64,000 nucleotides of DNA, taken from Aegilops tauschii subsp. strangulata (taxonomy: Eukaryota > Streptophyta > Magnoliopsida > Poales > Poaceae). Positions 21,672 through 64,000 of this stretch are shown here, piece by piece. The notes beneath the pieces were generated by a model. That model had not been told where the DNA came from. It ran no database searches and saw nothing but the letters and a program-made list of their open reading frames with translations. Within the stretch, counting starts at the first letter, position 1. The number at the start of each line of letters is the position of its first letter. The translations under genes were made by a program, and so were the position numbers. The DNA lies in the NCBI RefSeq assembly GCF_002575655.3, contig NC_053035.3, positions 500,246,601-500,310,600 on the forward strand. The letters are read 5' to 3'.

Positions 21672-21776
21672 ATGCATTTAAAATGCTGTTTGATATTTAT
21701 TTGTGTTTAAATATGTTCAAACTTGTTTAAATCATAGCAGTAATATTTTTTTATAAAAACAGTAATGATTTTTTTA

Positions 21777-21895: not shown

Positions 21896-21907
21896 TTGCA
21901 ATTTTAG

Positions 21908-22260
21908 TTGCATTCATTTGTGACGGTGGAGCGGGCCGGGGAGGGTGCGGGGGAGAGGGTGCGGGGGGTCATCGGCGGCGGTGGAGTGGGGGAGGGTGCG
22001 GGCCGGGGGTCGGCGGCGACGGCCGGTGGAGTGGGGGAGGGTGCGGTGGGTCGTCGGCGACGGTGGAGTGGGGGAGGGTGCGGGCCGGGGGTCGGCGGCG
22101 GCGGCCGGTGGAGCGGAGGAGGGTGCGGTGGGTCGTCGGCGGCGGTGGAGTGGGGGAGGGTGCGGGGGGTCGGCGGCGGCGGCCGGTGGAGCGGGGGAGA
22201 TGGTGCGGGGGGTGCTCGGCGGCGAGGGGAACCGAATCTGGCGAGGTGGGATAGCGATCG
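21908..22260 (+). repeat. G-rich tandem repeat, ~60-bp unit
   Basis: Five or six copies of a unit around GTGGAGYGGGGGAGGGTGCG followed by GGTCGGCGGCG. The plus strand is strongly G-rich with many runs of three to five G. It abuts the 3' end of the TNP2 gene (22384). Gly/Arg-rich and Pro-rich open frames here are compositional. Confidence 0.85.
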
Positions 22261-22383
22261 AGATGGAGGGGGATCGAGATCGAGTGTCCATGAAATTTAA
22301 AAACATTCATGAGTTCAAAAAGTGCCCATGAAATACAATCGAGAAATGAAGGCTACAATTTAAATACAATCAATCTTAGATAG

Positions 22384-25300
22384 CTATCTGTTCACAATCT
22401 TCTTGCCCTTATTTTTCGTAAATGGAGTTCTTCTCTTGAACGGACGTCCTTTAGGTAGGGTGGTCCTGCTTCTTCTTGTGGTGTATGCTGATACTTCATC
22501 GTCGTCGTCATGTTCCATCTTCGGGTCGCCGTACTTGTCGAAGTCTTGCTCATTGGCGACTCCATCCATTCCGATGATCTTCCTTTTGCCTCTCCTCACG
22601 ACAACACGACTAGGCTTTGATGGGTCGGTAATGAAGAAGCAATGGTCCACTTGGGAAGCCAGTACCCATGGCTCATTTTTCGCGGTGACGTTCGCGCCTG
22701 CGGTCTTGGATTTGGCTTCGGGTATAACCATGGTGGTGAAATACCGGTCTTCTTTTATGACGCTCTTGGCCCATCTGACACAGAACATCGGGACCTTCTC
22801 TCCAGCGTAGCTCAGCTCCCAGATCTCCTCGATCCTTCCGTAGTATCTGTCCTTGTCGTTACCGGTGTAGGATTCCATCGTTACCCCGGAGTTCTGATAA
22901 CCATCGCTCTTCATGTCCTTGTCCTCGGTGTAGAATGTGTAGCCGTTGATATCGTACGCCTCATACGTCATCAGGTTGTGCTCGGCGCCCTGTGACAAGG
23001 CGAATATGAGTTGTTCTTCCGCGGAAGAATCCTCATGTAAAGGGTACGACAGAAGCTTCTGCTTGAACCAACGCGTGAAACATGAGTTGTGCTCTTTGAT
23101 TATATCTCCGTCCGTCCTCTGTTGGCCTCGGTAATTGTACGTCTTCTCAATAAACGTTTTGTGCTTTACCACCCAAGGATCGACCACGTCTATGTGTTGT
23201 AGCGCGACTAGGTTTGCTCTTTCAAAGTCGGCGAGTCGACCATCGAAGTCGACATGCATTTCGCGGCGACCCTCACGGTGACCCCATCCAGCAAGCCTGC
23301 CGAGGTGCCTGTTGACGGCCAGACCAACGGGGTTCTCGATGCCTAGATAATTCGTGCAGTAGGAGATGCACTCTTTGGTCAGAAAGCCCCTGGCTATGCT
23401 TCCCTCTGGACGTGACATGTTGCGAACGTATCCTTTGATGACACCATTCATCCTTTCGAACGACATCATGCTGTGCAGGAATGTCGGCACGAGTTGGATG
23501 ATATCCTCCACGATATGGACCAGCAGATGCACCATAACGTCGAAGAATGCGGGAGGGAAGTACATCTCAAGCTCGCATAGTATCACCACGATCTCTTCCT
23601 GTAGCCTTCTGAGTTGCCTCACGCCAACCGACTTCCGAGAGATGACGTCGAAAAAGTTGCATAGGCCAAATAGCTTTTCACGGACGTGCGCGTCCATGAT
23701 CCCACGGATTGCAACTGGAAGTATCTGCGTCATCAGCACGTGACAGTCGTGAGACTTCATCCCGCTGAACTTCTACTTCACTGAGTCTAGGTATCTGCTT
23801 ATCTTCCCCGCGTAACCGTAAGGAAGTTTTACTCCTACGAGGCAGGTGAAAAACTGATCGATCTCCTCCTGACTTGGAGTGAAGCACGCAGAAGGGAAGT
23901 CATTTCCGGTCTTCTTGGCCTTTTTGCCTTTGCGACGACTTTCCGTGTCCTGCTTCGCCTCATCATCATCATCATCATTAGCGTGAAGCTCCTCCCTGAT
24001 GCCCATTGATTTCAAGTCTGCCCTTGCTTTCGGCCCATCTTTGGTCCTCTCTGGCATGTTGAGCAGGGTACCAAGCAGACTCTCGCACACGTTCTACGTG
24101 ATATGCATGACATCAAGGCTGTGAGGCACACGGTGGATCTTCCAGTACGGCAAGTCCCAGAAAACAGACCTCGTTTTCCATACCTTCAGTAGTGGCTCTG
24201 GCGCCTTTCGCTTCTTTCCCGGCTCTGGCGCCTTTTGCTTCTTTCCCGGCAGTGGGCAATCTTTCCAATTTTTCAACAACTCGTCTATTTCCTCGCCGCT
24301 CCTCGTACGCGGGCGTCTTCGGGGTTCGGTTTCACCATCGAACAGATCCTTGCGTTTCCTCCACGGGTCATCGTCGCGAAGCCACCTTCGATGTCCCATG
24401 AACACGGTTTTCGAAGACCCGGGATCTCTATCTAGCTGGCGATACGTTGTGTCATCCATGCACCTGACGCATCCAGAAAATCCGTGGACCACCTGCCCCG
24501 CGAGATATCCGAAACTGAGATAGTCGTGCACCGTCGTGAGCAGTGCGGCTCTCATAGGGAAATATTCTTTCTCTGCGGCGTCCCACGTATTGGCTGGCGT
24601 TTTCCACAGCGTGTCTAGCTCCTTTTTTAGCAGCCCCAGATACAGATTGATGTCGTTCCCTGGTTGTTTCGGCCCTTCAATTAGCATACTCATGTGAATG
24701 TACTTCCTCTTCATGCACAACCAGGGGGAAGGTTGTACATCCACACAAACACAGGCCAGGTGCTATGTGTGCTTCTCTGGCTGCCAAACGGATTGACTCC
24801 ATCGGTGCTCGCGCCTAGCACGATGTTCCTTGGATCGTTCCCAAATTCTGGGTGTTCGAAGTTCAACGCTTGCCACTGGCTCCCATCCTTAGGGTGACTC
24901 AGCATCTTGTCTTTTTTATTTATCTCCGGATCATTTGCGTCATCTTCTCGCTTCTTCTCCTCCCTATCCGTGTGCCAACGCAGGAGCTTTGCTACCTTAG
25001 GGTCCGTGAAATACCGCTGCAGACGAGGAGTGATCGGAAAGTACCACACCACTTTTCGAGGAGCTTTCTTCCTCTTCTTGTATCGAGTGACGCCGCACAC
25101 CGGACATATGGTAGACTCCGCGTGCTCGTCCCGATAAATGATGCAATTGTTCATGCACACATGGTATTTCACGTGTGGTAAATCCAGAGGACACACGATT
25201 TTCTTCGCCTCCTCGAAACTGGTCGAGCACTTGTTCCCCTTGGGAAGACGTTCGTGCCAGAATGACATGTTCTCGTCGAAGCATGCGTCGGTCATTTTGT

Positions 25301-25940
25301 GCTTTACCTTCATCTCCAGAGCCATGAGCGTTACTTTCAGACGGGTATCCTCGGGCCTGCATCCTTCATACAATGGAGTAACCGCGTCTATCTCCAGTTG
25401 ATCCAGCTTGGCTTTCTCTCGGGCGGCAGCTCTTGCGTTATCCGTCTGCTTGAGAAGCAGCTCTTGAATATGAGGGTCCTGCACCTAGCCCATCGATGGT
25501 CCATCGTCGTCTGCTCCGCCGGCATCTTCATCTTCATGATCATGCCCTTCGTCTGCTCCCGCATCTTCCTCATCATCATGTCCGGCATCTTCTACATGAT
25601 GACTGTGTACAGCATCACCGTCGTGATCATGTCCTGGAGATTCTTCATCTTCTCGCCCGCCCGAGCCGCGGTGGTTGTCTTGCTGCCCATCCTCATTTCT
25701 TGCCCGACCCCCATGGACGACTTCATAGTCATCTTCATCACCTTGCCACCGATAGCCATCCATGAAACCACGCAAGAGCAGGTGGTCCCGCACCTGCCCG
25801 GAATCCGGGTCCGCAATAAGGCTCTTCAGCTTGCATCTTCGACACGGACATCTTATCTCCGTGTCGTTCTTTTCAAGCATCTCGGCCTTCGCGGAGCTCA
25901 AAAACCTATTCACGATGCCTTCGGTCATCGTGCGGACCAT
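22384..25940 (-). pseudogene. CACTA-1 TNP2-type transposase, broken
   Basis: Minus-strand gene starting MVRTMTEGIVNRFLSSAKAEM at 25940, just after an AG acceptor-like CCCGCAG. Domains in order: transposon-associated N-terminal domain (IRCPCRRCKLKS, near residue 30), an acidic linker, Transposase_21 with its Cys cluster (CMNNCIIYR, CPVCGVTRYK) and STDGVNPFGSQ, then DUF4218 (FPPAFFDVMVHLLVHIVEDI) and DUF4216 (YYGRIEEIWELSYAG) with a basic tail ending at 22384. Lesions: in-frame TAG at 25485-25487, 24094-24096 and 23773-23775, and a one-base frameshift near 24722, where PPWLCMKRK becomes PPGCA-stop. The comparison for each is the intact TNP2 at 58785-62144. The enzyme would cut and move CACTA ends in the nucleus; this copy cannot give the full protein. 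Confidence 0.88.
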
Positions 25941-26395
25941 GGTCGCCTGCGGGGTAGAGCAAAACGATATTTTAGAACCAAGAAAAAATTTGGCATGACT
26001 TTCCCTAAAAATAGGACCAAAAAGAATGCATAGTGCCAAAATTCTCGCCGAAACGGAAATGAATCAACATTCCGGCAAAATATTTGCAACTATCGCATTT
26101 CAAATACCGGTACCTGCAAACACAAACATATATGCAACACCACAAACATACATAGATCTAGCTAGGACATAAAAAGTGCATGTGCACGTTGTTGGAGGGA
26201 GAACAACATAAAGATAGCTTCCCGCTTACTTACCTATCAAAAAAAGGGGGTTTAACCACGTAATTTGGATGAATTTATGGTGCAAATGAGGTGAGGAGGA
26301 GGAGGCAGCCGAGACAAGCTTGGAGGAGGAGGAGGAGAGAATGAAGTGGGGAAAGTGAGCGGGTAGGTGTGGCTGTCCAAAATATCTAGCTCGTC
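25941..26395 (-). other. CACTA-1 TNP2 upstream leader
   Basis: No supported gene. It contains the block GCATGACTTTCCCTAAAAATAGGAC (minus-strand gene upstream side, about 25993-26017) that resembles the hairpin arm upstream of the second gene, a GAGGAGGAGGAGG purine run near 26290-26335 and a possible intron 3' end just before the start codon. Confidence 0.5.
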
Positions 26396-26870
26396 CCAGG
26401 TTACTAATGGCGCACCACCACCTAATGCACCATTAGTAACCCTGGTTACTAATGGCGCACCTGCTGGTGGTGCGCCATTAGTAGTTTTGCAAAAAAAAGA
26501 CACTAATGGCGCACCAGGGAGCAGTGCGCCATTACTAGCTTAAACTAGTAATGGCGCACTGCCCCAGGTGCGCCATTAGTAGTTTTGCAAAAAAGTAAAA
26601 AATAAAAAAAATATTGTAGTGGCGCACTATGTGGCTGGTGCGCCATTACTAGTTAGAACTAGTAATGGCGCACTGTGCCCTGGTGCGCCATTAGTATGTC
26701 TGGAAAAAAAATTGTTACTAATGGCGCACCGTGTGGCTGGTGCGCCAGTAGTGTATTTCACACTAATGGCGCACCAACACATGGTGCGCCACTGCTACAT
26801 AGCAATGGCGCACCACATGTCTGGTGCGCCATTAGTGTCCATTCCATCTATAGCCCTTTTCCTAGTAGTG
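26396..26870. repeat. CACTA-1 right terminus and subterminal palindrome array
   Basis: Eight or so palindromic units with arms ACTAATGGCGCACC and GGTGCGCCATTAGT, some as AGTAATGGCGCAC...GTGCGCCATTACTAG, separated by A-rich spacers. They end in the TIR CCTTTTCCTAGTAGTG. Centres differ between units, as in the left array. Confidence 0.9.
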
Positions 26871-50600: not shown

Positions 50601-50959
50601 AGGATGTCTCCTGAGATGATGAAACAATGGGAGGAAATGAAGAAAGAGGTATATTGACATTAAAAAAATGATTTGCCCGATGAGGTGTATTGGAAATTTG
50701 ACAATTCAAAAAAGTTTACGACAAAATCAATGTATAGATGGCTGGATAATGATATTGCTGGCTCTAGCTTCAAGTGGGTATGGGATGCCAAGCTACCTCT
50801 AAAAATTCAAATTTTCTTGTGGCAAGTGGGGCAAAATGCCATCCTGACTAGAGACAACATGAAAAAAAGACTCTAGCCAGGGAATCATTGTTGTTCCTTC
50901 TGTGATCAATTGAAAACAACCCAACACTTGCTATTTTTATGCCCCGTATCTAGAGTGGT
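47646..50959 (+). pseudogene. LINE ORF2 (endonuclease and reverse transcriptase), broken
   Basis: Starts MISLFWNCRGVGKRGMATC, the usual start of plant L1 endonucleases. Endonuclease motifs: DFVGIQETM, VGGDFNIL, YTWSNNQ, ISDHNPLIL. Reverse transcriptase: NWLLKGDRNTDYFHR, MKPNKAPSPDNIPIEF, KLDFEKAYDKVN, ILQYVDDTILC (Asp pair at 49722-49727). Then KYIGMHVSYAGL, KWSRICRSKKKGGLGVKDLR and the zf-RVT region (CSFCDQLKTTQHLLFLC). Lesions: frame shifts near 47870 and 47970, a TAA then a shift near 48497-48518, stops at 49193-49195, within 49380-49435, at 49578 and 49860. CACTA-2 cuts it just after the zf-RVT cysteines. Confidence 0.85.
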
Positions 50960-51265
50960 CACTAGTAGAAAAAGGGGCTTTTACCCCGGTTCGTAAAGGC
51001 CTTTTGTCCCGGTTTTCGAACCGGGACTAAAGGGTCGTTACTAATGCCCTAACCCTTTAGTCCCGGTTCTTACACGAACCGGGACAGAAGGTCCTCCACG
51101 TGGCCGCTTCTGCCAGCCCAGGCAGGGGGGCCTTTGGTCCCGGTTGGTGACACGAACCGGGACAAAAGGCCATGCCTATTGGTCCCGGTTGGTGTCACCC
51201 ACCGGGACCAATAGGCAGGGCCTTTTGTCCCGGTTGGTGTCACCAACCGGGACCAATAGGCATCC
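50960..51265. repeat. CACTA-2 left terminus and subterminal palindromes
   Basis: CACTA terminus followed by palindromic units such as TTAGTCCCGGTTCTTACACG/AACCGGGAC and GTCCCGGTTGGTGTCACC/AACCGGGACCAA, about five in 300 bp. Positions 51266-51629 hold only the 3' flank of the second gene, with a G-rich stretch near 51308-51340. Confidence 0.9.
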
Positions 51266-51629
51266 ACGCGTCAGCATTTCAGGAGCTGGGGTTTTTGTTT
51301 TTTTTTAAAGGGGGGGTTGGGGGGTTTTGGGGGGTTAATTTAGGTGTTTCATATATTGTGTTAGCTAGCTAAGTAATAGAGAGAAGTGTCCTCTCTTATC
51401 TCCGTGCTTGGTCGACGCTACGTACTATATACGTATGGAGAGGAGTAGACACGCTAGCTAGTAAGCAAATGAAGGAAACAGAAGATCGTCATGAACATAT
51501 GCATACAGAGAGAAGTGATATCGACCACCTCTCCTTGTCCGAGAGATTGGTCGAACAACAAGTTCTCGTATATCTATCTGACACTACCGGCTACATATAT
51601 ACAATAATTATCTCTTACAATATAATCTC

Positions 51630-54600
51630 CTAATTAAATTGTAAGAACACAGGGTCCGCATAGTATTCTCCGTTTTCAGCGATCACGTGGTCAAGGAAGA
51701 ATGACGCCAATTCCTCTTGAATTGCCCGCATACGATCTTCTGCTAGGAGTTCATCCCGCATCCGAAAGATCAAATTTGAAGAAGGGGGTCAATACATATA
51801 TATATGAATAAATGAAACTCGACACAAATGATGGTAATAAAATAAAATTGTGAATATTATTGCTTACGCACTTCATATTGTTCGTCAGAGTAGCCCCGCT
51901 CACAGGTCGTGTGGCGGATAGACTCGCAAACGTAGTATCCACAGAAATCATTCCCTTGTTCCTGCCACAACCACTTTACAAGAAATAGAGGTCAATCTAA
52001 CTGATAGGCAAGCATGCTAAATGGTATTGATGAAACTAGCGCTTGAATCACTAGGAGATGTGCGGAACATGCTACTATAGTACTTACTTTCGGGTGTCTA
52101 AATTGCAGCTTATTCGGCAGTCCCGGAGCTTTTGTGGTGAATTTTCTCCAAACCCTACCAGACAAAGAAAACAATTACTTGATATCAGGAAATGAACAAA
52201 GTTGCTGATATGGTGGATAATGATCGATTTAACTTACTTCTCGAGCATTTGAGTCATGTCCGCATAGTCCTGGGGATCTATTCGTCTCGAGTCTAAGACG
52301 GTTACTACTCCCTGATCAAGCTTAATCTCTAGGAGAATATAGTGGAAGATGCGCATGCATGCATAAGTCATCAATTACATTACCATAACCTGGACTAATA
52401 AGGGAAACCGAATATGCACAAGACAGTAACACTCACTTGAAGTTGTAAGGAAAGAGTATTATAGCTTTGTTTTGATTTAATACCAACGATCGTAGCAAGT
52501 TGGCCTCGGCTTCTTTGGCATTGTTTTGAACCGTATATGCATCTATGAGATTTGTGTTAATGAACCCAATATCACCGATTTGTCTTTTCTTCAATTCGGC
52601 GATCTTCAATCTGCATAATATAGTGAGGATAATTATAAATACATGCAATGAAAGAGCTGACCTATATAGAGAGACTTAATGACAGAAGTAGTACTACTTA
52701 CAGACAATATCAAGTGATCGTTGATTTATCGAGGGCCTTTTGATTGAAAAATTGGAATAACTCCTCAAATGGAACATTCAACAGTTCAATTCCAACGAGG
52801 TCATGCTCCGGTTTAACTCTCAACGTCATAGTATTCATCCCATCAGACTCTCTGCAGGTTTTCATGTACCAATCATGTAATCTTCGCATCATCGTTGTTA
52901 GAATAGTTCCATCTTTGACGAGAGGCTTCCCGTAATGGTATTTGTGTTCGTCCACCTCCATGATTTCATAATGTACATCGTCGGGCAGGTAATCTCCAAC
53001 ATTGGTATAACCGGGCACCATCCTCGGATCATTAGCGGGCACCTTGAGCGGGGGGCACGATTGGTTCGCTTGTTCGCCGAGCTGGGCAATTTTTTTCCCA
53101 GCTCATCGTTCTTTTAACCTTTGATCACTGACAGTACTTCCCGACCGCTCCGCTTCGGCATATGTCTTTGCAAGAATGCGCTCATAGTTGCCTCTCGGCG
53201 GAGACTTTGGTGGTTTTGTCAGGGCAGCCAGAGTGCGCTTTGCTTTCACCGGATCTACCTTCTCCTCCGGAGGTGGATGTTTCTTTGCTTTCACCCCTTC
53301 AAAGAAGTTCGTCACTTCGGCTCGCACGATCTCCGCGGTTTCCTCCTCGGTCCTCTCGTATGGTAACTTCTCTGGAGTCTTCAGAGAAGGACCGGATCTG
53401 TATTGCCTCCCGCCTCTGGCAGCTGTACTGCTAGACGCTGGCAGAGCAGACGGAGCGGCTGCGGCTGTTCTTTCCTTGCTTACGAGGCGGAGGAGGACTA
53501 CGACGTGCCGGAGCACCGGCGGGTCTCTTTCGCCCTTGCTGACGAGGCGGAGAAGGAGGAGGCTGGCTGCTCTGGCACGCCAGCGCAGGCGGAGTGCCGC
53601 CACGCGCCGGAGAAGGAGGCTGATTGCCCTGATCACTCGCCGGAGGAGGAGGCGGAGGAGGAGGCGGAGTGCCGCCATGTGCCGGAGAAGGAGGCTGAGT
53701 GCCCTGATCACTCGCCGGAGGAGGAGGCGGCAGAGTGCCCTTACTCGCCGGAGGCGTCCAGTTCGGAAGGTTAATGAGCTCCTTCCGCCATAGGCACGGA
53801 GTCTTCAGAGCTAAACCCAGCCGAGTCTCCGCTTCACCGGTAGGGTGGTCAAGCTGGAGGTCCTCAAATCCCTCCGTTATTTCATCCACCATCACCCTAG
53901 CATATCCTTCTGGAATCGGCCGGCAGTGGTAGGTTGCGCCGGGTTCAGGAGGTAAAACAGAGCCAACAGCCGCCTTGACTTTGAAGTTCTGCCATTGCGC
54001 CATAAGGTGGCAATGTTGAGACTCCGTGATAGAATCCACGGGGTAGCTAGCAGGAGACGTCAAGACATGCTCTGGCTGAAGCAGCTCGGTGGAAGCCACG
54101 CTGCTTCTCCGCTGAGATGGCGGGGTAGCTTCGGGGGTAGTTTCGGCATGTCGATTGCCGTCTCGTTCCTCTAGCGCTAGAACCCTTTCGTGCAGCTTCT
54201 GAATTTGGATCTGCTCCATTTTTTTCCTCCTCTCCTGGCTTTTGTAACCGCCTGCGTCCGAAAAACCAGCCTTCCACGGAACGGAGCCTGGCGTGCCTCG
54301 TGTCCGTCCAGGGTGCTCAGGATTCCCGAGGGCCATTGTGAGCTCGTCGTTCTCTCTGTCTGGAACGAATGTCCCTTCCTGCGCTGCATCGATATATTGC
54401 TGAATCTTCTTGACTGGTATTCTCAAAAGCTCGTTCGTCCAAACGCACCTCCCTGATACAGGGTCCAATTTTCCGCCAGCCCCGAAGAACCAAGTCCGGC
54501 AACGGTCTGGCCAGTTCATTGTCTGTGGTTCGATCCCTTTTCCAAGCAGATCATTCTCAGCCTTGGCCCACTTAGGTCGGGCTTTGAGGTAGCCACCTAA

Positions 54601-55497
54601 CCCCGTGCGATGGTGAAGCTTCTTCTTCGCAGCATTCTGCTTGTTTGTCGCTGACATCTTCTTACTCTTTTCCAATGTCTTGTGGGCCACAAATGCGGGC
54701 CAGTGATCTCTGATCTTCTCATACTGGCCGATGAATTCTGGTGTCTCTTCTTTGTCGACAAACGTTTTCAGCTCATTCTTCCACCTCCTGAATAGGTCTG
54801 CCATCTTCTTAAGAGCATGAGACTTGATTAATTGCTCTTTAACTGGCTTCTCTGGATCCTCCTCTGGCGGTAGGGTGAAATTTGCCTTCAGCTCAGTCCA
54901 AAGATCATCTTTCTGCATATCATTGACATAAGACACCTCAGGATCTTCCTTCTTAGGCTTATACCATTGGTGGATGCTGATCGGGATCTTGTCCCTAACA
55001 AGAACCCCGCACTGAGCAGCAAATGCTTCCTTTGTCCGGATGGGTTCAATCGGTTGGCCGTCGCGCGCGATTGCTGTGATCTCAAACCTTTCATCCGAGC
55101 GCAACTTTCTCTTCGGGCCTCGTCTCTTTACCGAAGTTGTGCTTGATCCGGAGGGCTAGAAAAAAGAAGAAAGACGAGAGTTAATTAATATGTGTACATA
55201 CCAAAACAATGAATGCATCAATTAGCTAGTCAGCACAGGCTTAACTAATATATTTACCTGGCCGGACTCTATTCGGTCACCGGAGCCGTCACCACGGGTT
55301 CCTTCTTGCACCAGCATTGGGTCACCGGAGCCATCATAATCATGTCTTTCCTCCTCCACTCTTCGATCACCGTAGCCTGCTTCTTTACCCTGTTCTTCCA
55401 GACCATCATTGTCGTTCAGATACGACAAGATATCACCTCCGGCTAAGATTATGTCCCCCAACACCTCTTCTGCTTGCTCGTCTCGTCCGTGCTCCAT
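51630..55497 (-). pseudogene. CACTA-2 second gene: TNPA-like region joined to Ulp1-like (C48) peptidase
   Basis: Exon 1 55497-55258 (MEHGRDEQAEEVLGDIILAG), GT donor; exon 2 from 55155 (PSGSSTTSVKRRGPKRKLRS) through the En/Spm-type PF03004 region (RDHWPAFVAHKTLEKSKKMS, RHHRTGLGGYL-like block, RTWFFGAGGKLDPVSG), a coiled coil and a Pro-rich tail. The frame breaks near 53470 and again near 53109, and a TGA (52710-52712) stands before the next donor. Further exons: 52616-52436 (IAELKKRQIGDIGFINTNLI), about 52340-52240 (FHYILLEIKLDQGVVTVLDS), 52160-52090, 51975-51865 (QEQGNDFCGYYVCESI) and 51765-51630, stop at 51630-51632. The peptidase keeps His, Asp, Gln and Cys of the C48 active site. Such peptidases act on SUMO-like conjugates; the role in transposons is unclear. 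At least three lesions, so a pseudogene. Confidence 0.7.
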
Positions 55498-55569
55498 TGT
55501 TTCTGCAAATATTACAACATGGCAATTATTACACAAACATGACAGCAGGTGGATATATTAGTGCAAACG

Positions 55570-55990
55570 TAGACCTAGCTTATTCCGGGTTTGGGGTGGC
55601 CTCGGCAACGCTTCAAGGGTAGGGGCGCGGCAGGAGGGGGTAGGAGACCGACATCGTTTTTTTCTAGGGTTTGGGTGTCCTTGAGAGTTTTGGTCGAGCG
55701 AGAGGGCCCGGGGGTGCTCCCGTGGTATAAGTTATCACGGTCGAAGTTATCCGGGAGGGGGAGGCAACTGGCGAAGAAAACTAAAACTTTTCACAAGTGT
55801 TTGTTATATAGTCCGACGTCCCCCCCCCCCCCCTCATGTCGAAGTTATCTGGGAGGGCCTGGGTAGATCGACAACGACGACGCTCTTTTTCTAGGGTTTG
55901 GGTGGCCTCGATAGTTGGTCGGGCAAGCGGACCGCCTCTCTCTCATGCATGTCCGACGTCCCCCCTCATGTCAAAGTTATCGGGGAGGGG
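55570..55990 (+). repeat. Diverged tandem repeats with CTAGGGTTTGGG upstream of the second gene
   Basis: Two clear copies of a unit starting TTTTTCTAGGGTTTGGGTG (about 55657 and 55888) and ending GAAGTTATCNGGGAGGG or a variant, with a third weaker copy at 55588. TAGGGTTT is a telobox-like motif, in the same position relative to the gene as the array at 18960-19215 in CACTA-1. Confidence 0.65.
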
Positions 55991-56555
55991 GTAAATTTTA
56001 CAAAGTTTTCATACAATCAAAGAACTCTATATATATCATCATCATCTATCATCACAATCAAAGAACTCTATATATCATCATCATCATATCATTTACAGAA
56101 AAATTCTAAAGAAAAAATAATCTATATATCACAATATCAATATTTTCTATATACATACATACATACACATACATATACATCTACATTAATTATATATATA
56201 TGAACAAAAAAATAATTCTATGAACATAAAAAGGTCTATGAACAAAAAAACATCACATCAATATTTTCATTGTTCATATGAATCTATCTTCTTGCACCAT
56301 CATATGTTCAAATAGGAAATTTAGAAAAAAAAAAAGTAAAGGTTTTGCCTAATGCATTGTTCATATGAATATACAAACATTTGCATATTCTACAATAATT
56401 AATATCACCAAAAAAATCTATGAATAGAAAAAATCCTAACTTTTCTAAAAATCTATCTTTTGCATATATACATGAACATACATATACACAGAGAACATAT
56501 ATACAGAAAAAAATCCTAACTTTTCTAAAAATCTATGAACAGAAAGTAAAGGGAG
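55991..56555. other. AT-rich stretch with simple repeats
   Basis: No gene supported. CATCATCATCATAT-type and CATACATACATACACATAC microsatellites, and a duplicated AAAAAATCCTAACTTTTCTAA (about 56428 and 56509). Confidence 0.7.
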
Positions 56556-56559
56556 GAAG

Positions 56560-57085
56560 GGGGCAGTGTCGGCCCTGACCAAGGCGACGGCGGCGCGTCG
56601 GGGCAGGGGCAGAGGCGACAGCGGCGTGGTCGGGGCAGGGGCAGAGGCGACGGCGGCGTGGTCGGGGCAGGGGCAGAGGCGACGGCGGCGTGGTCGGGGC
56701 AGGGCGAGGCAGAGGCGACGGCGGTGTGCTCGGGGAAGGGGCGGCCAGGGGCGACGGCGTGGTCGAGGGCAGGGCGGCGCGACGACGGGCGCGGGCGATG
56801 GCGTGGTCAGGGGCAGTGGCGGCGTGACGACGGGCGCGGGCAACGGCGACGACGACGACGGGCGCGGGCGATGGCGACGAGGAGCAGGGCGCCGGGGAAG
56901 GGGCGGCCAGGGGCGACGGCGTGGTCGAGGGCAGGGCGGCGCGACGACGGGCGCGGGCGACGGCGTGGTCAGGGGCAGTGGCGGCGCGACGACGGGCGTG
57001 GGCAACGGCGACGACGACAACGGGCGCGGGCGATGGCGACGAGGAGCAGGGCGTCGGGGCAGAGGGCGGCGTCGGCGGCGGGGAG
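56560..57085. repeat. GC-rich tandem duplication, ~160-bp unit, upstream of the CACTA-2 second gene
   Basis: Two long copies (about 56740-56900 and 56907-57062) of a unit containing GCGGCCAGGGGCGACGGCG, GACGACGGGCGCGGGCG and AGGAGCAGGGCG, after several shorter repeats of GGCAGAGGCGACGGCGGCG. Open frames on both strands (Arg/Gly-rich and Pro-rich) reflect composition and I do not call them genes. Confidence 0.8.
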
Positions 57086-57129
57086 AATGAGAAACTGCTG
57101 AAATTTTCCTAAATGCTTCTTATATAGCC

Positions 57130-57375
57130 AGAGCATTGGTCCCGGTTCGTGGCACCAACCGGGACCAATGCCCCTTTTAGTTCTGGTTGGTGCCACCAAC
57201 CAGGACCAAAGGTCTCTTTTCAGCAGCCCAAAGGGCGGGAAGCAGAGGCCTTTGGTCCCGGTTGGTGGCACCAACCGGGACTAAAGGGGGTGCATTGGTA
57301 CCGGTTCGTGGCACCAACCGGAACCAAAGGCCCCCTTTAGTCCCGGTTGGTGCCACCAACCGGGACCAAAGGCCT
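57130..57375. repeat. Internal subterminal-type palindromes in CACTA-2 (upstream of second gene)
   Basis: Units such as GTCCCGGTTCGTGGCACC/AACCGGGACCAA repeated five times. They match the terminal arrays but lie about 6 kb from each end. They are directly followed by a Pol III-type cassette (57410). Confidence 0.9.
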
Positions 57376-57409
57376 TGTGCTGGAACTGGCGCGGTGCGGT
57401 GGGATGTTT

Positions 57410-57453
57410 AGTCCCACCTCGCTAGCCGAGAGGCTTCGACAGTGGTTTATAAG
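57410..57453 (+). promoter_or_regulatory. U6-type Pol III promoter core, copy 1 (USE + TATA)
   Basis: AGTCCCACCTCG (57410-57421) fits the plant snRNA upstream sequence element RTCCCACATCG with one change, the same variant I recall in a wheat U6 promoter. A gap of exactly 24 nt leads to TTTATAAG (57446-57453). A 24-nt edge-to-edge gap is the U6 (Pol III) spacing; Pol II snRNA genes have about 10 nt more. The conserved GAGCTC that would start the RNA lies 29 nt after the first T. Confidence 0.75.
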
Positions 57454-57474
57454 CGCGGCTGCGCTGACCACTTC

Positions 57475-57623
57475 GAGCTCCTCTCAAATACAGGCTTACG
57501 GGCCTATTCTGTCACTATGTGCCTGTGGGCCCACTGGGCCTTCTGCGGGCCTGAATCCTGGCCCATGGATGGGTTTCTAGTCGTATTCAGGCCGTGGTGG
57601 CCCAGTAGGTGGCACTTATTTTT
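57475..57623 (+). ncRNA. Predicted Pol III transcript, copy 1 (~149 nt)
   Basis: From GAGCTCCTCTCAAA (57475), placed as in U6 genes relative to the TATA box, to T5 at 57619-57623, a Pol III terminator. A hairpin precedes the terminator: outer stem ACTGGGCC (57533-57540) with GGCCCAGT (57599-57606), inner stem GGCCTGAAT (57548-57556) with ATTCAGGCC (57585-57593). A smaller AGGC/GCCT hairpin is near 57492-57505. I do not recognise the RNA; it is not U3, U5 or U6 by its start. Expression is not shown. Confidence 0.5.
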
Positions 57624-58233
57624 GCTTTATTTATTTTATTTTATTTATTTCCTACTTATTTATTAAAGTTTATTTTGTTTCTACTTATTTATTTTATTTT
57701 CTTTTTTGTTTTTTTATTTATTTTATGAAAATTCTTTTGCTTTTAATGTTTTGAATAGAAAATACTTTGATAATTTTAGTTGCATAAATTTTATATAATT
57801 TTAGTTTCAATAATACTTTGAAAATACTTTTTTTTTCTTTGTTGCTTTTTTTAATTTTGTTTCTACTTACAACAAAATACTTACTGTTGCTATTTTTATT
57901 TATTTTATTAAAGTTTATTTTTTTATTTTCTTTTTGCTTTTAGGTCACAAATATTATAAACTTTTTGTTAGTGCCATTAGTTTTCAAATTTGAATAGTTT
58001 AAATTTGAATTCTTTGAAATTTGTGTGAATCACTAGCTTGTGATTAACTTTACTATAAAAATAGATTTTGGAGTGATTTTTTTTCCTGCTATTTAATATT
58101 ACTGTGTTTTATGATTCTATTCAAAAACGGATTTTGTTATTTTAGTTTCCAACAAAAAAATCTTTATGATAATGCTTTTTGCTATTAAAGTTTCTAACAA
58201 AAACATTCTTTATGAAAATTCCTTTTGATACTG
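57624..58233. other. T/A-rich stretch after Pol III copy 1
   Basis: TTTATTTATTTTATT-type low complexity with no gene. The beginning parallels the sequence after copy 2 (62790 onward), so the duplicated block extends into it. Confidence 0.7.
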
Positions 58234-58707
58234 TGTTTCATCATTTCACCCACATAGCATGTGCTAAAAAGTTGAGAGGGTTATGGCAAAAACTGGATGC
58301 ACTTCGTGTACAGAATGGACAATCTCTTCCGAAGTATCAGGGTTTCGAACGAAAACTCATTAGTTACAAAGGGATTTCATTTTTTTGAACTTATTTGAAC
58401 TCCAGACTTTTTGTGTGTTCAAAATGCACCATTCAAAGCCAAATCATCAATTTTCAACCCTTTCTGACTTCATTTGTTATTTTTCATGCATTTACTGATT
58501 TTCATGAGCTATATGACCGTGAAATTGAAAAGCAGTACAAATGAACTCTGGAAAGGTTGAAAGTTGGCATGGTGTCATCATTTCACCCACATAGCATGTG
58601 CTAAAAAGTTGAGAGGGTTACGGCAAAAACTGGATGCACTTCGTGTACAAAAAATGGACAATCTCTTCCGAAGTATCAGGGTTTCGAACGAAAACTCATC
58701 TGTTACA
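58234..58707 (+). repeat. Direct repeat pair, ~135 bp each, downstream of TNP2
   Basis: CATCATTTCACCCACATAGC ... AAAACTCAT occurs at about 58234-58371 and 58574-58707 with few differences. It lies just beyond the transposase stop, in its 3' region. No function evident. Confidence 0.8.
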
Positions 58708-58784
58708 ACAGGCATTTCAAATGAACTACAAAAAAGGTTGAAAGTTGGCATGGTATCATCATAATAGTTGTGGAGAGAAAGTCT

Positions 58785-61700
58785 TCACTTTTTCTTCGCT
58801 TGTGTCCTTTGCTTATTGCGCTGTAACCATGGATAATCTTCATCGTTTATCAGGATGCTTGGATCAACCTTGACTTTGAAGGGAGGAATTTCATGAAACT
58901 TTTCATAATCTTCAGACATGTCTGTCTTGCCCTCCACTCTCACGATGTCCCTTTTTCCTGAAAGAACTATGTGGTGCTTTGGCTCATCGTATGATGTATT
59001 CGCTTCCTTATCTTTTCTTTTTCTCGGTCTGGTAGACACGTCCTTCACATAGATAACCTGTGCCACATCATTGGCTAGGACGAACGGTTCGTCAGTGTAC
59101 CCAAGATTGTTCAGATCCACTGTTGTCATTCCGTACTGTGGGTCTACCTGTACCCCGCCTCCTGACAGATTGACCCATTTGCACTTAAACAAAGGGACCT
59201 TAAAATCATGTCCATAGTCAAGTTCCCATATGTCCACTATGTAACCATAATATGTGTCCTTTCCCCTCTCAGTTGCTGCATCAAAGCGAACACCGCTGTT
59301 TTGGTTGGTGCTCTTTTGATCTTGGGCGATCGTGTAAAATGTATTCCCATTTATCGCGTATCCTTTGTAAGTCAATACAGTCAAAGATGGTCCCCTGGAC
59401 AACGAGTACAGCTCATCACAAACAGTGTTGTCACCTCTGAGACGTGTTTCCAACCAACTGCTAAAAGTCCTGATGTGTTCCCATGTAATCCAGTCGTCGC
59501 ACTGCTCCGGGTGTTTGGAGCGCAGACTGTTCTTGTGTTCATCGACATACGGGGTCACCAAGGTAGAGTTCTGTAGAACTGTGTAGTGTGCTTGAGACCA
59601 AGAATATCCGTCCCTGCATATTATTGAGTCCCCTCCAAGTGTGCCTTTTCCAGTCAGTCTCCCCTCATACCGCGATTTAGGGAGACCTATCTTCTTACGG
59701 CCAGGAATGAAGTCAACACAAAACCCAATGACATCCTCTGTTTGATGGCCCATGGAGATGCTTCCTTCTGGCCTAGCGCGGTTACGGACATATTTCTTTA
59801 GGACTCCCCTGAACCTCTCAAAGGGGAACATATTGTGTAGAAATACGGGCCCCAGAATGACAATCTCGTCGACTAGATGAACTAGGACGTGCGTCATGAT
59901 ATTGAAGAAGGATGGTGGGAACACCAGCTCGAAACTGACAAGACATTGCGCCACATCACTCCTTAGCCTTGGTATGATTTCTGGATCGATCACCTTCTGA
60001 GAGATTGCATTGAGGAATGCACATAGCTTCACAATGGCTAATTGGACGTTTTCCGGTAGAAGCCCCCTCAATGCAACCGGAAGTAGTTGCGTCATAATCA
60101 CGTGGCAGTCATGAAACTTTAGGTTCTGGAACTTTTTCTCTGGCATATTTATTATTCCCTTTATATTCGACGAGAAGCCAGTCGGGACCTTCATACTGAG
60201 CAGGCATTCAAAGAAGATTTCTTTCTCTTCTTTCGTAAGAGCGTAGCTGGCAGGACCTTCATACTGCTTCGGAGGCATGCCGTCTTTTTCGTCCAAACGT
60301 TGCAGGTCCTCCCGTGCCTCAGGTGTATTTTTTGTCTTCCCATACACGCCCAAGAAGCCTAGCAGGTTCACGCAAAGGTTCTTCGTCACGTGCATCACGT
60401 CGATTGAAGAGCGGACCTCTAGCTCTTTCCAGTAGGGTAGGTCCCAAAATATAGATTTCTTCTTCCACATGGGTGTGTGTCCCTCAGCGTCATTCGAAAC
60501 AGCTAGTCCGCCGGGACCCTTTCCAAAGATTACGTGTAAATCATTGACCATAGCAAGTATGCGATCACCGGTACGCATGACGGGCTTCTTCCGGTGATCT
60601 GCCTCGCCTTTGAAATGCTTGCCTTTCTTTCGACATTGATGGTTGGTCGGAAGAAATCGACAATGGCCCAGGTACACATTCTTCCTGCATTTGTCCAGGT
60701 ATATACTTTCAGTGTCATCTAAACAGTGCGTGCATGCGTGGTATCCCTTGTTTGTCTGTCCTGAAAGGTTACTGAGAGCGGGCCAATCGTTGATGGTTAC
60801 AAACAGCAACGCGTGCAGGTTAAATTCCTCCGGTTTGTTCTCATCCCACGTACGTACACCGTTTCCATTCCACAGCTGTAAAAGTTCTTCAACTAATGGC
60901 CTTAGGTACACATCAATGTCGTTGCCGGGTTGCTTAGGGCCTTGGATGAGAACTGGCATCATAATGAACTTCCGCTTCATGCACATCCAAGGAGGAAGGT
61001 TATACATACATAGAGTCACGGGCCAGGTGCTGTGATTGCTGCTCTGCTCCCCGAAAGGATTAATGCCATCCGCGCTTAAACCAAACCATACGTTCCTTGG
61101 GTCAGCTGCAAACTCAGCCCAGTACTTTCTCTCGATTTTTCTCCACTGCGACCCGTCAGCGGGTGCTCTCAACTTCCCGTCTTTCTTACGGTCCTCACTG
61201 TGCCATCGCATCAACTTGGCATGCTCTTCGTTTCTGAATAGACGTTTCAACCGTGGTATTATAGGAGCATACCACATCACCTTCGCAGGAACCCTCTTCC
61301 TGGGGGGCTCGCCGTCAACATCACCAGGGTCATCTCGTCTGATCTTATACCGCAATGCACCGCATACCGGGCATGCGTTCAGATCTTTGTACGCACCGCG
61401 GTAGAGGATGCAGTCATTAGGGCATGCATGTATCTTCTGCACCTCCAATCCTAGAGGGCATACGACCTTCTTTGCTGCGTATGTACTATCGGGCATTTCG
61501 TTATCCTTTGGAAGCTTCTTCTTCAATATTTTCAATAGCTTCTCATATCCTTTGTCAGGCACAGCATTCTCTGCCTTCCACTGCAGTAATTCCAGTACGG
61601 TACCGAGCTTTGTGTTGCCATCTTCGCAATTGGGGTACAACCCTTTTTTGTGATCCTCTAACATGCGATCGAACTTCAGCTTCTCCTTTTGACTTTCGCA

Positions 61701-62144
61701 TTGCGTCCTTGCATCGACAATGACCCGGCAGAGATCATCATCATCGGGCACTAGTTCCTCTTGATCTTCAGCAGCTTCCCCCGTTGCAGCATCATTGGGC
61801 ACATCGTCTGGTTCCTCTTGATCTTCAGCAGCTTCCTCGGTTGCAGCATCACCATATTCAGGGGGCACATAGTTGTCATCGTCCTCTTCTTCTATGCCGT
61901 CTTCCATCATAACCCCTATTTCTCCGTGCCTCGTCCAAACATTATAGTGTGGCATGAAACCCTGGTAAAGCAGGTGGGTGTGAAGGATCTTTCGGTCAGA
62001 GTAAGACTTCGTATTCCCACATGTAGGGCATGGACAACACATAAAACCATTCTGCTTGTTTGCCTCAGCCACTTCAAGAAAATCATGCACGCCCTTAATG
62101 TACTCGGAGGTGTGTCTGTCACTGTACATCCATTGCCGGTTCAT
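58785..62144 (-). CDS. CACTA-2 TNP2-type transposase, intact
   Basis: An uninterrupted frame of 1128 codons (from 62171); I choose MNRQWMYSDRHTSEYIKGVH at 62144 (1119 residues) because family members start at this conserved block. Domains, numbered from 62171: transposon-associated N-terminus (CCPCPTCGNTKSYSD, residues 45-59), an acidic linker with a duplicated AAEDQEE unit (114-139), a Cys cluster (C250, C254, C267, C270), Transposase_21 with SADGINPFGEQSS (Asp368) and TINDWPAL (Asp462), then DUF4218 (FPPSFFNIMTHVLVHLVDEI) and DUF4216 (TYYGYIVDIWELDYG) and a basic C-terminus. It cuts and joins CACTA ends in the nucleus. Upstream lie subterminal repeats and Pol III copy 2. No lesion seen, so this element may supply transposase. 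Confidence 0.92.
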   Translation of the reverse strand: MNRQWMYSDRHTSEYIKGVHDFLEVAEANKQNGFMCCPCPTCGNTKSYSDRKILHTHLLYQGFMPHYNVWTRHGEIGVMMEDGIEEEDDDNYVPPEYGDAATEEAAEDQEEPDDVPNDAATGEAAEDQEELVPDDDDLCRVIVDARTQCESQKEKLKFDRMLEDHKKGLYPNCEDGNTKLGTVLELLQWKAENAVPDKGYEKLLKILKKKLPKDNEMPDSTYAAKKVVCPLGLEVQKIHACPNDCILYRGAYKDLNACPVCGALRYKIRRDDPGDVDGEPPRKRVPAKVMWYAPIIPRLKRLFRNEEHAKLMRWHSEDRKKDGKLRAPADGSQWRKIERKYWAEFAADPRNVWFGLSADGINPFGEQSSNHSTWPVTLCMYNLPPWMCMKRKFIMMPVLIQGPKQPGNDIDVYLRPLVEELLQLWNGNGVRTWDENKPEEFNLHALLFVTINDWPALSNLSGQTNKGYHACTHCLDDTESIYLDKCRKNVYLGHCRFLPTNHQCRKKGKHFKGEADHRKKPVMRTGDRILAMVNDLHVIFGKGPGGLAVSNDAEGHTPMWKKKSIFWDLPYWKELEVRSSIDVMHVTKNLCVNLLGFLGVYGKTKNTPEAREDLQRLDEKDGMPPKQYEGPASYALTKEEKEIFFECLLSMKVPTGFSSNIKGIINMPEKKFQNLKFHDCHVIMTQLLPVALRGLLPENVQLAIVKLCAFLNAISQKVIDPEIIPRLRSDVAQCLVSFELVFPPSFFNIMTHVLVHLVDEIVILGPVFLHNMFPFERFRGVLKKYVRNRARPEGSISMGHQTEDVIGFCVDFIPGRKKIGLPKSRYEGRLTGKGTLGGDSIICRDGYSWSQAHYTVLQNSTLVTPYVDEHKNSLRSKHPEQCDDWITWEHIRTFSSWLETRLRGDNTVCDELYSLSRGPSLTVLTYKGYAINGNTFYTIAQDQKSTNQNSGVRFDAATERGKDTYYGYIVDIWELDYGHDFKVPLFKCKWVNLSGGGVQVDPQYGMTTVDLNNLGYTDEPFVLANDVAQVIYVKDVSTRPRKRKDKEANTSYDEPKHHIVLSGKRDIVRVEGKTDMSEDYEKFHEIPPFKVKVDPSILINDEDYPWLQRNKQRTQAKKK

Positions 62145-62369
62145 CCGCGTGCATTCCGCTAAACCGTACAAATCTCAAGGAAAATGGAGCTTTGAGGTCG
62201 AGCTTCGAGAGGAGAAAGCTTAACTACTGTGGCTCGGGCATTTCATCGAACACCTCATGTGCATAGGAGGTGAGCTAGAGCACCACAAAGCCCTCCCCTC
62301 GCTGGCCACAGAAAAACAGAGCACTCCACTGCTCTGCTCGCGGGCGAGGGGTATATATAGGCACCTCAT

Positions 62370-62550
62370 TGGTCCCGGTTCGTGGCACGAACCGGGACTA
62401 AAGGCTATGGTCCCGGTTCAAGCCACCAACCGGGACCAATGGTGGTGGGCCAGGAGCAAGAGGCCTTTGGTCCCGGTTGGTGCCACCAACCGGGACTAAA
62501 GGGGGGGCATTGGTCCCGGTTGGTGGCACCAACCGGGACCAAAGGTCCTG
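62370..62550. repeat. Internal subterminal-type palindromes in CACTA-2 (upstream of TNP2)
   Basis: Four units such as GTCCCGGTTCGTGGCACG/AACCGGGACTAA directly upstream of the transposase gene. With the following 240 bp they repeat the block at 57130-57640, so this is a duplicated promoter-side module. Confidence 0.9.
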
Positions 62551-62577
62551 TGCTGCCCGCGTCGCGGCCAAAACTAT

Positions 62578-62621
62578 AGTCCCACCTCGCTAGTTGAGAG
62601 GGGCTCGGAGTGGTTTATAAG
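62578..62621 (+). promoter_or_regulatory. U6-type Pol III promoter core, copy 2 (USE + TATA)
   Basis: AGTCCCACCTCG (62578-62589), 24 nt, TTTATAAG (62614-62621). The 24-nt gap differs in sequence from copy 1 at several positions while its length is kept. It points away from the TNP2 gene, which is on the other strand. Confidence 0.75.
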
Positions 62622-62642
62622 CCCCGCTGCGGCTGCCCTCTC

Positions 62643-62789
62643 GAGCTCCTCTCAAACGCAGGCTTACGGGCCTAATCTCACACTATGCTGTCTGTGGGCC
62701 TATTGGGTCTTCTGCGGGCCTGAATCCTGGCCCAGGTTGGGTTTCTAGTCGTATTCAGGCCGTGGTGGCCCAATAGGTGGCATTTTTTT
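62643..62789 (+). ncRNA. Predicted Pol III transcript, copy 2 (~147 nt)
   Basis: From GAGCTCCTCTCAAA (62643) to T7 at 62783-62789. Hairpin: outer stem ATTGGGTC (62702-62709) with GGCCCAAT (62767-62774), inner stem GGCCTGAAT (62717-62725) with ATTCAGGCC (62753-62761). Relative to copy 1, the second outer pair changed from C-G to U-A on both sides and another C-G became U-G, so pairing is kept. Function unknown. Confidence 0.5.
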
Positions 62790-63163
62790 CCAGTTTTTTT
62801 GTTTTGTTTACTCATTTGCTTTATGATAATGCTTTTATTTTTTCCCTGTTTCTTGTTTTCTTTTTTGCTTTATTTATTTTGTTTTTTTTATTTTTTATTC
62901 CATTTTGTTTCTAGTTACTTATGTATTTTACTTTATTTATTTTATTTTTATTTATTTTACTGCTGCTATTTTTATTTATTTTATTAAGGTTTATTTATTT
63001 TATTTACTATAGTTTATTTTATTTTATTTTATTAAAGTTTATTTATTTTTATTTATTTTATTAAGGTTTATTTATTTTATTTACTATAGTTTATTTTATT
63101 TTATTTTATTAAGGTTTATTTATTTTATTTATTTTATTAAGGTTTATTTATTTTATTTACTAT
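62790..63163 (+). repeat. T/A-rich minisatellite
   Basis: Repeated TTTATTTATTTTATTTACTATAGTTTATTTTATT and shorter variants, written here only by type; units of about 40-60 bp recur from 62975 to 63163. No gene. Confidence 0.75.
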
Positions 63164-63303
63164 AAAAAATGAACATAGATGCACCTATAGAGAAAATTCG
63201 ACCTAAATTCATAATAAATTTCTATGAATTTCAAAGAAATTTACTCTGAATTTAGGTCAAATTCCCTATATAGGGGCATCTATTTTCACTTTGAGACGAG
63301 CTC
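63164..63303 (-). ncRNA. Predicted Pol III transcript, copy 3: long hairpin RNA (~140 nt)
   Basis: Minus strand, from GAGCTCGTCTCAAAG (63303) to a run of six T (A6 at 63164-63169 on plus). Between them lies a near-palindrome, about 63175-63283: arms ATAGATGC...CGACCTAAATTCA and TGAATTTAGGTC...GCATCTAT, some 45-50 nt each with few mismatches. If transcribed it would be one long hairpin, like a small-RNA precursor. The inside differs from copies 1 and 2, but start distance, length and terminator are the same. The palindrome could also be a tiny inserted MITE. Confidence 0.45.
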
Positions 63304-63324
63304 AACAAGGCAGAGAGGGACGGG

Positions 63325-63368
63325 CTTATAAACAGGTGTGAGCGCCCTTCGGTTGGCGAGGTGGGACT
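63325..63368 (-). promoter_or_regulatory. U6-type Pol III promoter core, copy 3 (USE + TATA), inverted
   Basis: On the minus strand AGTCCCACCTCG (63368-63357), 24 nt, TTTATAAG (63332-63325). It faces copy 2, so the two would be transcribed convergently towards the minisatellite. Confidence 0.72.
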
Positions 63369-63389
63369 AAACTGTGACCGCAACTAGGA

Positions 63390-63688
63390 CTAACCCATTA
63401 GTCCCGGTTTGTGGCATGAACCGGGACTAAAGGGTGAGCCTCTGGTCCCGGTTCAAGCCACCAACCGGGACCAATGGTGGTGCGCCAGGAGCGAGGACCA
63501 TTGGTCCCGGTTCGTCCCACCAACTGGGACCAAAGGGGCCAGACGAACCGGGACCAATGCCCCCACGAGGCCCGGCAGGCCCCTGGCCTCACGAACCGGG
63601 ACAAATGCTCACATTAGTCCCGGTTCGTGACTGAACCGGGACTAATGTAAATGTTGCCCTGTGACCAAAGCCCTGTTTTCTACTAGTG
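63390..63688. repeat. CACTA-2 right terminus and subterminal palindromes
   Basis: Units such as TTAGTCCCGGTTTGTGGC/ATGAACCGGGACTAA and GTCCCGGTTCGTGACTG/AACCGGGACTAA, then the terminus CCCTGTTTTCTACTAGTG ending at 63688. Confidence 0.9.
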
Positions 63689-63691
63689 GGT

Positions 63692-64000
63692 GTAGAGAAC
63701 TGTAGGATCTCTACTTGGGACTGATTGCTGTCCTAATTCTGTTTGGCAGTATTATGCTTGGGTTTATAGTTTCTTGCTTGGCCTTGAACAAATTTATACC
63801 GTTGGCTTGGCAGCTATATGCTGGGCTATCTGGTTGGCTCGGAACCGGGCCACCTTTGAGTACAAATGGATTAACTCTCTGTTTGAGATTGTGTTCATAG
63901 CTTGTGCTTTTTTGATATACTGGCCGGGCCTCCAGAAACCTGAGATGGAAGGGATGATGAAGAGGGGCGCGGAGATGCTGAAAAAAAACACAACTCAGAT
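63692..64000 (+). pseudogene. LINE ORF2 C-terminal part, after CACTA-2
   Basis: Joined to 50959, the frame reads RVV, a TAG where Trp is usual, then RTVGSLLGTDCC and YAWVYSFLLGLEQIYTVGL, AICWAIWLARNRATFEYKWI and a basic end still open at the window edge. AIWLARNRATFE is typical of the plant LINE C-terminus. It confirms that CACTA-2 split one LINE. Confidence 0.8.

Follow-up and report, generated by a model that had tools for sequence, protein, structure and literature searches.

Three U6-type promoter cores were found inside one complete CACTA transposon of Aegilops tauschii subsp. strangulata, and it is highly probable that they are type-3 (U6-type, gene-external) promoters of RNA polymerase III (Pol III) belonging to compact RNA genes that the element carries. 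The analysed DNA, 64,000 nucleotides of contig NC_053035.3 (positions 500,246,601 to 500,310,600), is referred to as the window, and coordinates are counted from its first letter; the transposon occupies 50960–63688 (12,729 bp). As far as sequence and evolution show, the modules, each comprising a core, a predicted RNA and a T-run, make up a family of predicted RNA genes borne by transposons, which extends beyond the three cores. The cores and the leader behind them had been pointed out in an initial annotation; the hairpin RNA and T-run after each core, the thousands of copies, the several RNA classes and the lack of the monocot-specific promoter element (MSP) were added here.

The cores were composed of the upstream sequence element (USE) AGTCCCACCTCG, a 24-nt gap and the TATA box TTTATAAG. 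They were matched with zero mismatches at 57410–57453 (+), 62578–62621 (+) and 63368–63325 (-), exactly as annotated, including the invariant gap. Even when up to 3 mismatches were allowed, no further core was detected elsewhere in the window, and 100 dinucleotide-preserving shuffles contained none. The leader GAGCTC(C/G)TCTCAAA, also annotated before, was located 29 nt past the first T of TTTATAAG in 3/3 cases (57475, 62643 and 63303). All three modules have the order TATA, 21 nt, leader, hairpin and T-run. Among the three cores, 12/12 positions of the USE and 8/8 of the TATA were invariant, compared with 8/24 of the gap and 6/21 of the TATA-to-leader spacer. Copies 1 and 2 were aligned, with gaps, over about 890 bp including the promoter, a part of this alignment being low-complexity, and copies 2 and 3 shared an 80-nt match of 71%. 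The alignments indicate that the three cores are duplicates within the element, copy 3 being a more distant relative; because they are related by duplication, they are not independent occurrences.

The promoter of module 1 (USE 57410–57421, TATA 57446–57453) was followed by a predicted class a hairpin RNA of 144 nt at 57475–57618 (+), the start of which was set by the TATA distance. The predicted Pol III terminator, a T5 run at 57619–57623 (+), was the first run of four or more T past the predicted start (+145). The fold of 57475–57622 had a minimum free energy (MFE) of -63.6 (z -3.09), and 1/200 shuffles folded as well. In module 2 (USE 62578–62589, TATA 62614–62621), the predicted class a RNA of 140 nt at 62643–62782 (+) shared 91% identity with that of module 1 over 141 columns. 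Its predicted terminator was the T7 run at 62783–62789 (+), the first run of five or more T (T5+), at +141; the MFE of 62643–62790 was -55.4 (z -2.24; 4/200 shuffles folded as well). Module 3, on the minus strand (USE 63368–63357, TATA 63332–63325), had a predicted RNA of 134 nt at 63170–63303, a near-perfect class b hairpin whose arms, 63292–63230 and 63228–63166, form the inverted repeat I4 (84% complementary, 63 nt). The MFE of 63303–63161 was -66.8 (z -14.4), and the predicted terminator, a T6 run at 63164–63169 (-), was the first T5+ at +135. In the window modules the USE stands directly ahead of a hairpin, one of the features of Pol III-driven MIRNA loci of the Cuscuta type.

No match to the window was found in Rfam at gathering score, and U6 RNA was absent even among the weak matches, so the modules are not U6 genes or pseudogenes. 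Weak matches to Rfam microRNA (miRNA) families were rejected as due to inverted repeats, being below gathering scores and mostly on both strands. No tRNA genes were detected in 50900–63750. Core matches in prokaryote and virus collections (5 viral, 6 genome stretches) were rejected as chance: the gaps varied, and in none of the 11 flanks was a GAGCTC leader present at the expected position.

The location of the three cores inside a single CACTA element, proposed initially, was confirmed by its structure. Inverted CACTAGTAGAAAA termini typical of CACTA elements were found at 50960–50972 (+) and 63676–63688 (-), flanked by the 3-bp target-site duplication GGT at 50957–50959 and 63689–63691. The transposase open reading frame at 58785–62174 (-), 1129 codons from stop to stop, matched Pfam Transposase_21 (E 7.7e-86) together with DUF4218, Transpos_assoc and DUF4216, which identifies it as tnp2-type. 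Modules 1 and 2 would be transcribed opposite to this frame and module 3 in the same direction.

With a free gap of 20–30 nt, the core pattern gave 4,799 + 4,794 = 9,593 matches in the 4.10-Gb host genome, and the reversed-pattern control with the same gap gave 0. The gap was exactly 24 in 100/100 of the matches listed, all of which lie within 7.7 Mb of the start of a single contig. With the gap set to 25–45, the same pattern was matched 16 + 23 = 39 times in the genome, 37 of these at 25–30. Several clusters of 3–4 cores within about 7 kb were seen among the matches listed. The T-run and the hairpin were not included in the initial search pattern; the first T5+ was nevertheless situated 112–158 nt past the predicted start in 58/64 distinct modules. 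The T-run lay 0–15 nt from the last paired base in 64/64 modules, a figure which has no control and was not used as evidence. In the first 120 nt of the 64 modules, 12 runs of four or more T (T = 28.5%) were counted versus 19 such runs of A (A = 21%), as raw counts. Sequence resembling the transposase region of the window adjoined the modules in loci L031 and L032; element ends were sought in the window only.

Transcript-like sites numbered 103 initially and 83 after 20 (1 edge, 19 identical) were dropped. A promoter was present at 60 of the 83, and the other 23, except L039, were judged by eye to be antisense hairpin arms. Of 18 partner sites, three were attributed to chance on visual inspection, two of them lying in transposase-like sequence and one having a gap of 28. 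In the remainder the gap was 24 in 15/15, with core mismatches at 5/300 letters, some of these sites representing the same pair seen from either side. The modules examined fell into at least three RNA classes, the 64 distinct modules including 9 of class b and 10 of class c. Classes a and b have only the 14-nt leader in common (13/14 identical), class c gave no BLAST match to class a or class b, and a fourth RNA (L017+360) was partly class a-like (71%, 66 columns). In L040 and L041, class a and class c modules stood back to back with promoters 236 bp apart; as read from these arrangements, one region can hold divergent predicted RNA genes.

For comparison with the host, at least 48 scored U6 matches were found, and 30 partly overlapping loci yielded 47 U6 reads, among whose upstream sequences 26 were distinct. 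The gap was 24 in 44/47 reads, 26 in one and 19 in one, and in one altered read no TATA was found; the spacing of the cores was therefore rightly called U6-type. The TATA-to-start distance was 29 or 30 in 45/46 reads with a TATA and 28 in one. The modules share with host U6 genes the 24-nt gap, TTTATAAG, the TATA-to-start distance and the T-run end, and the module USE was identical with that of U6 or 1–2 letters apart (TTTAG-TCCCAC(C/A)TCG type); some host U6 reads carry TACCAC(A/C)TCG. In barley HvU3, the form of the USE seen in the modules, TCCCACCTCG, is reported 25 bp and the start 23 bp from the TATA (excerpt of PMC6181210). The modules differ from U6 genes in that their RNA is not U6, that the window ones lie inside a transposon and that they exist in thousands of copies, about 9,600 module promoters versus at least 48 U6 matches in the same genome. 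The module gaps resembled U6 gaps at 9.96/24 letters versus 6.73 when shuffled, which would fit a capture of the core from a U6 gene, but weakly, since a one-base rotation scored 9.69.

The USE is common to Pol II and Pol III small nuclear RNA (snRNA) genes, and the spacing of Pol II snRNA promoters is longer than that of Pol III ones. One alternative is that the cores are promoters used by Pol II or by both polymerases, for instance for the transposase or a long non-coding RNA. The orientation of module 3 along the transposase frame agrees with such a use, as does the Pol II activity that type-3 promoters can show (excerpt of PMC6023835). However, modules 1 and 2 are antiparallel to the frame, the spacing equals that of host U6, 39 genome cores fell in the range of 25–45 which holds the longer Pol II spacing, and the cores are followed by hairpins and then T5+ runs, which makes use of the cores by Pol II or by both polymerases very unlikely. 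The initial reading of the cores as snRNA-type external Pol III promoters is supported, as regards sequence and evolution, by the kept core and spacing and by the same layout of host U6 genes.

The initial annotation had also asked whether the USE, the gap and the TATA are conserved among family copies. This was studied in the window's own genome with copies picked by RNA sequence alone. The anchor, 23 bases of the 3' half of class a RNA, had 2,951 exact genome copies, and 60 consecutive ones, the 18th–77th listed, were sampled, all situated within 25.6 Mb of the start of contig C1. A promoter was scored as recognisable with at most 3/12 mismatches in the USE and 2/8 in the TATA, which applied to 55/60 copies; the remaining five were excluded from the divergence counts. 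The gap was 24 in 54/55 and 19 in one. The divergence from consensus was 1/275 in TTTAG, 12/550 in the USE and 6/440 in the TATA, while the gap, the spacer to the start and the upstream sequence reached 292/1315, 294/1155 and 404/2140, respectively. In the RNA, the values were 70/770 for the leader, 382/2488 for +15..+60 and 94/1910 for +60..+95. Thus, the USE and TATA had diverged by about 1–2% versus 22–26% in the gap and spacer. Rows with an indel were 1/55 in the gap and 1/55 in the spacer versus 32/55 in the 39 nt upstream and 36/55 in +15..+60. The first T5+ came 20–24 nt past the anchor in 57/60 copies; for the remaining three the distances were 31, 38 and 39.

The anchored copies are mutually related, and for this reason no p-value is given. 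In 71 sites selected by the core, the within-subtype divergence was 176/1704 in the gap, 184/1491 in the spacer and 61/994 in the leader; much of the gap divergence falls between subtypes. Since the USE, the TATA and their spacing were kept while the intervening letters diverged, a type-3 promoter for Pol III appears to have been maintained by selection within this family of transposons. As the promoter was kept in most copies, such selection would have acted during the spread of the transposon, and the RNA probably benefits the element.

The cores could instead be passengers that go back to a single capture of an old U6-like promoter fragment, were copied along in recent bursts and are now functionless. 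The duplication relating copies 1 and 2, the young and uniform class c and the likeness of the gaps to U6 would fit this, the last weakly in view of the score of the rotated gaps. Recency, however, cannot explain 1–2% divergence of the USE and TATA beside 22–26% in the gap and spacer, or gap indels in 1/55 rows versus 32/55 just upstream, and the T-run and the class a fold were also kept. Functionless passengers are accordingly very unlikely.

The fold of class a was studied in the alignment A1, which comprised 37/64 modules. Excluded were class b (9), class c (10) and eight class-a-like or odd modules, namely four with the first T5+ at 255 (L040, L043, L049 and L050) as well as L034, L017:424-550, L050:1163-1325 and L058:483-642. 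In the consensus stem, 96.8% of 1,078 cells were paired (36 distinct RNAs) versus 94.9% in shuffles, 0/500 of which were as high, the share of paired cells being raised by the exclusion of damaged RNAs. Pairing fell to 23–45% when the partner was slid by 1–3 columns. The covariation score was 0.094 versus 0.065 in shuffles (0/500), and 16 cells were changed on both sides versus 3.9 (0/500). The number of further pair types, 20 versus 19.0 in shuffles (103/500), showed no excess. The unpaired 3' bulge TCTAGTCGT diverged at 10/324 versus 29/136 in the terminal loop and 319/1428 in the linker. The predicted fold, as judged from A1, and the unpaired motif are conserved in class a RNAs.

Subterminal repeats bind transposase in CACTA elements. 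That the USE and TATA, adjoining such repeat blocks, are kept as DNA-binding sites serving transposition or chromatin, for instance as an insulator or as a platform for a transposase or host factor, with any RNA as a by-product, has very little probability, since neither the T-run past the hairpin, nor a paired RNA with a conserved unpaired motif (the bulge versus loop and linker counts above), nor the agreement with the U6 start distance is predicted by it.

Class c RNA differs from class a and is without the GAGCTC leader. From 986 exact copies of its anchor, 40 consecutive ones (35th–74th listed) were sampled. A recognisable promoter with gap 24 was present in 40/40, free of mismatches in 32 and carrying a single one in 8. 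The first T5+ was 36–40 nt past the anchor in 40/40. Subterminal-type repeats were found upstream in the class c consensus. On contig C1, the 100 class c copies listed of the 986 extended to 450.6 Mb and were sparse at about 86–377 Mb; a distal enrichment is reported for the barley Caspar CACTA family (excerpt of PMC5738225), a likeness of distribution only. At L039 (+), near 924, a class b hairpin with the normal downstream sequence was found, with unrelated sequence replacing the promoter. An origin of the class b hairpin from a miniature inverted-repeat transposable element was rejected, as this promoter-less copy keeps the module downstream sequence and looks like a truncated module.

Several results weigh against Pol III promoters of selected RNA genes. 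The MSP (RGCCCR or its complement) was present 45–95 nt upstream of the USE in 8/64 modules and 30/30 U6 promoters (shuffles 14%), and within 130 nt in 13/64 modules and 30/30 distinct U6 promoters (shuffles 36%); it is described as required for expression in monocots (excerpt of PMC11961915). The exact USE form TCCCACCTCG was found in 1/47 U6 reads (L063), most having TCCCACATCG, with A replacing C. The first T5+ came only at 179, 187 or 255 in 6/64 modules, and an internal T4 of module 3 (63196–63193, +108) could end Pol III transcription early. The promoter or TATA was lost in 5/60 anchored copies: L104 and L105 (one deletion, two copies), L135 and L150 (other upstream sequence) and L143 (USE intact, TATA destroyed). 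The pairs of class a with two-sided changes, 3 versus 2.1 in shuffles (135/500), showed no excess; the alignment used for these counts had also served to derive the structure, and kinship alone can beat shuffles without structure. Class c was too uniform for contrast (USE 6/400, TATA 1/320, gap 45/960, spacer 11/840) and was rejected as independent proof of constraint, being uniform throughout.

Because the MSP was not found as in U6 genes, the modules are, by the composition of their upstream regions, not standard monocot snRNA promoters; they may still work like one despite this lack. In maize, the loss of the MSP is reported to cost 30–60% (excerpt of PMC6181210). In Nicotiana benthamiana and poplar, USE-TATA promoters of 70 bp are reported to be sufficient, apart from some exceptions (excerpt of PMC12268498).

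We infer that Pol III transcribes the modules. The snRNA-activating complex would be recruited, together with Pol III, by the USE and TATA at U6 spacing, and transcription, by analogy with U6, would start about 29 nt past the first T of the TATA, near the leader. Pol III would then traverse the hairpin of about 135–145 nt and stop at the T5–T7 run at its foot. The long near-perfect hairpins of classes b and c may be Dicer substrates yielding small RNAs, whereas class a may be a structured RNA that binds a protein or RNA, with the bulge TCTAGTCGT as a putative binding site. With less certainty, the RNAs may act in trans for the transposon; for instance, they could supply small-RNA pathways directed against host silencing, or they could regulate transposition. 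Taken together, a DNA transposon family with its own type-3 Pol III RNA genes, in which the promoter, spacing, terminator and class a fold are selected and the RNAs act in trans, is slightly favoured.

The remaining features of the element are the following. A second long open frame of 574 codons at 53431–55155 (-) was without a Pfam match. An internal block of subterminal-type GGTCCCGGTTGGTG... repeats (57126–57375; repeat families D4 and D5) was located upstream of module 1, repeats of the same type (62359–62548) upstream of module 2, and the right subterminal repeats (63388–63658) upstream of module 3. The left subterminal repeats, found by repeat search at 51018–51277, had no U6-type core in the core search of the window. 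The repeat block, promoter and RNA were directly duplicated at 57233–57641 and 62448–62809, on either side of the transposase frame. A 162-bp GC-rich unit formed a tandem pair with 97% identity at 56731–57054. Subterminal palindromes at 57305–57358 and 62445–62560 matched the miRNA families MIR5387 and MIR1437 below cut-off on both strands; annotated miRNAs of these types may be CACTA repeats. A second CACTA-ended stretch, 14189–26870, with the ends CACTACTAGAAAA and CACTACTAGGAAA, ACT on either side and different subterminal sequence, was also without a U6-type core in the window search.

A USE-bearing sequence of another sort, TTTAGTCCCACCTCG, about 25 nt and TTAAATAT, was observed in L034 (-) near 125 and, with one mismatch in TTTAGTCCCACCTCG, in L012 (+) near 556. 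It may belong to another family whose core resembles that of U6. The wheat marker tag rs31586 is similar to this form, with 24 nt, and TTTTTAGTCCCACCTCG is contained in two wheat marker tags (excerpt of PMC9746167).

If transcription is confirmed, the modules would represent a novel means by which a DNA transposon produces RNAs of its own, and U6-type RNA genes of a cut-and-paste transposon might escape silencing directed at Pol II transcripts. Much of the U6-type promoter content of a cereal-type genome may reside in the family, and annotation searches for small RNAs and U6 promoters will encounter modules by the thousand in genomes of this kind. The modules also provide a large natural set of core promoter variants and a natural test of whether, in a grass, the USE and TATA are enough when the MSP is lacking. 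After Cuscuta, they may be the second instance in plants of hairpin genes transcribed by Pol III. In agreement with the novelty supposed at first, no report of U6-type promoters in a CACTA element was recognised within the open-licence literature of PubMed Central (PMC), most subscription papers lying outside it; short strings from the module RNAs did not occur in open-licence PMC papers.

The transposons known to us to carry Pol III promoters are retroelements in which the promoter is internal. Cassandra retrotransposons, with 5S rRNA promoters, and short interspersed nuclear elements carry internal type-1 or type-2 promoters, whereas the modules have gene-external type-3 promoters in a cut-and-paste element. 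Hudzik et al. (2023) reportedly described MIRNA loci of Cuscuta campestris that are induced at the interface and have a U6-like promoter. As in the modules, a USE promoter precedes a hairpin in these loci. The promoter has Pol III features (PMC10226582), and Pol III primary transcripts of the loci are called unique to the authors' knowledge (excerpt of PMC12506650). The Cuscuta loci are genes of a parasitic dicot for which no transposon location is described in the available parts of both sources (PMC10226582, PMC12506650), while the modules are known from sequence. Rice miR820, like the modules a hairpin RNA inside a CACTA transposon, is encoded in five copies, targets OsDRM2 and has a precursor similar to OsDRM2 (excerpt of PMC3459959). 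No USE promoter or Pol III is mentioned for miR820 in that excerpt, whereas each module of the window has its hairpin headed by a USE and TATA.

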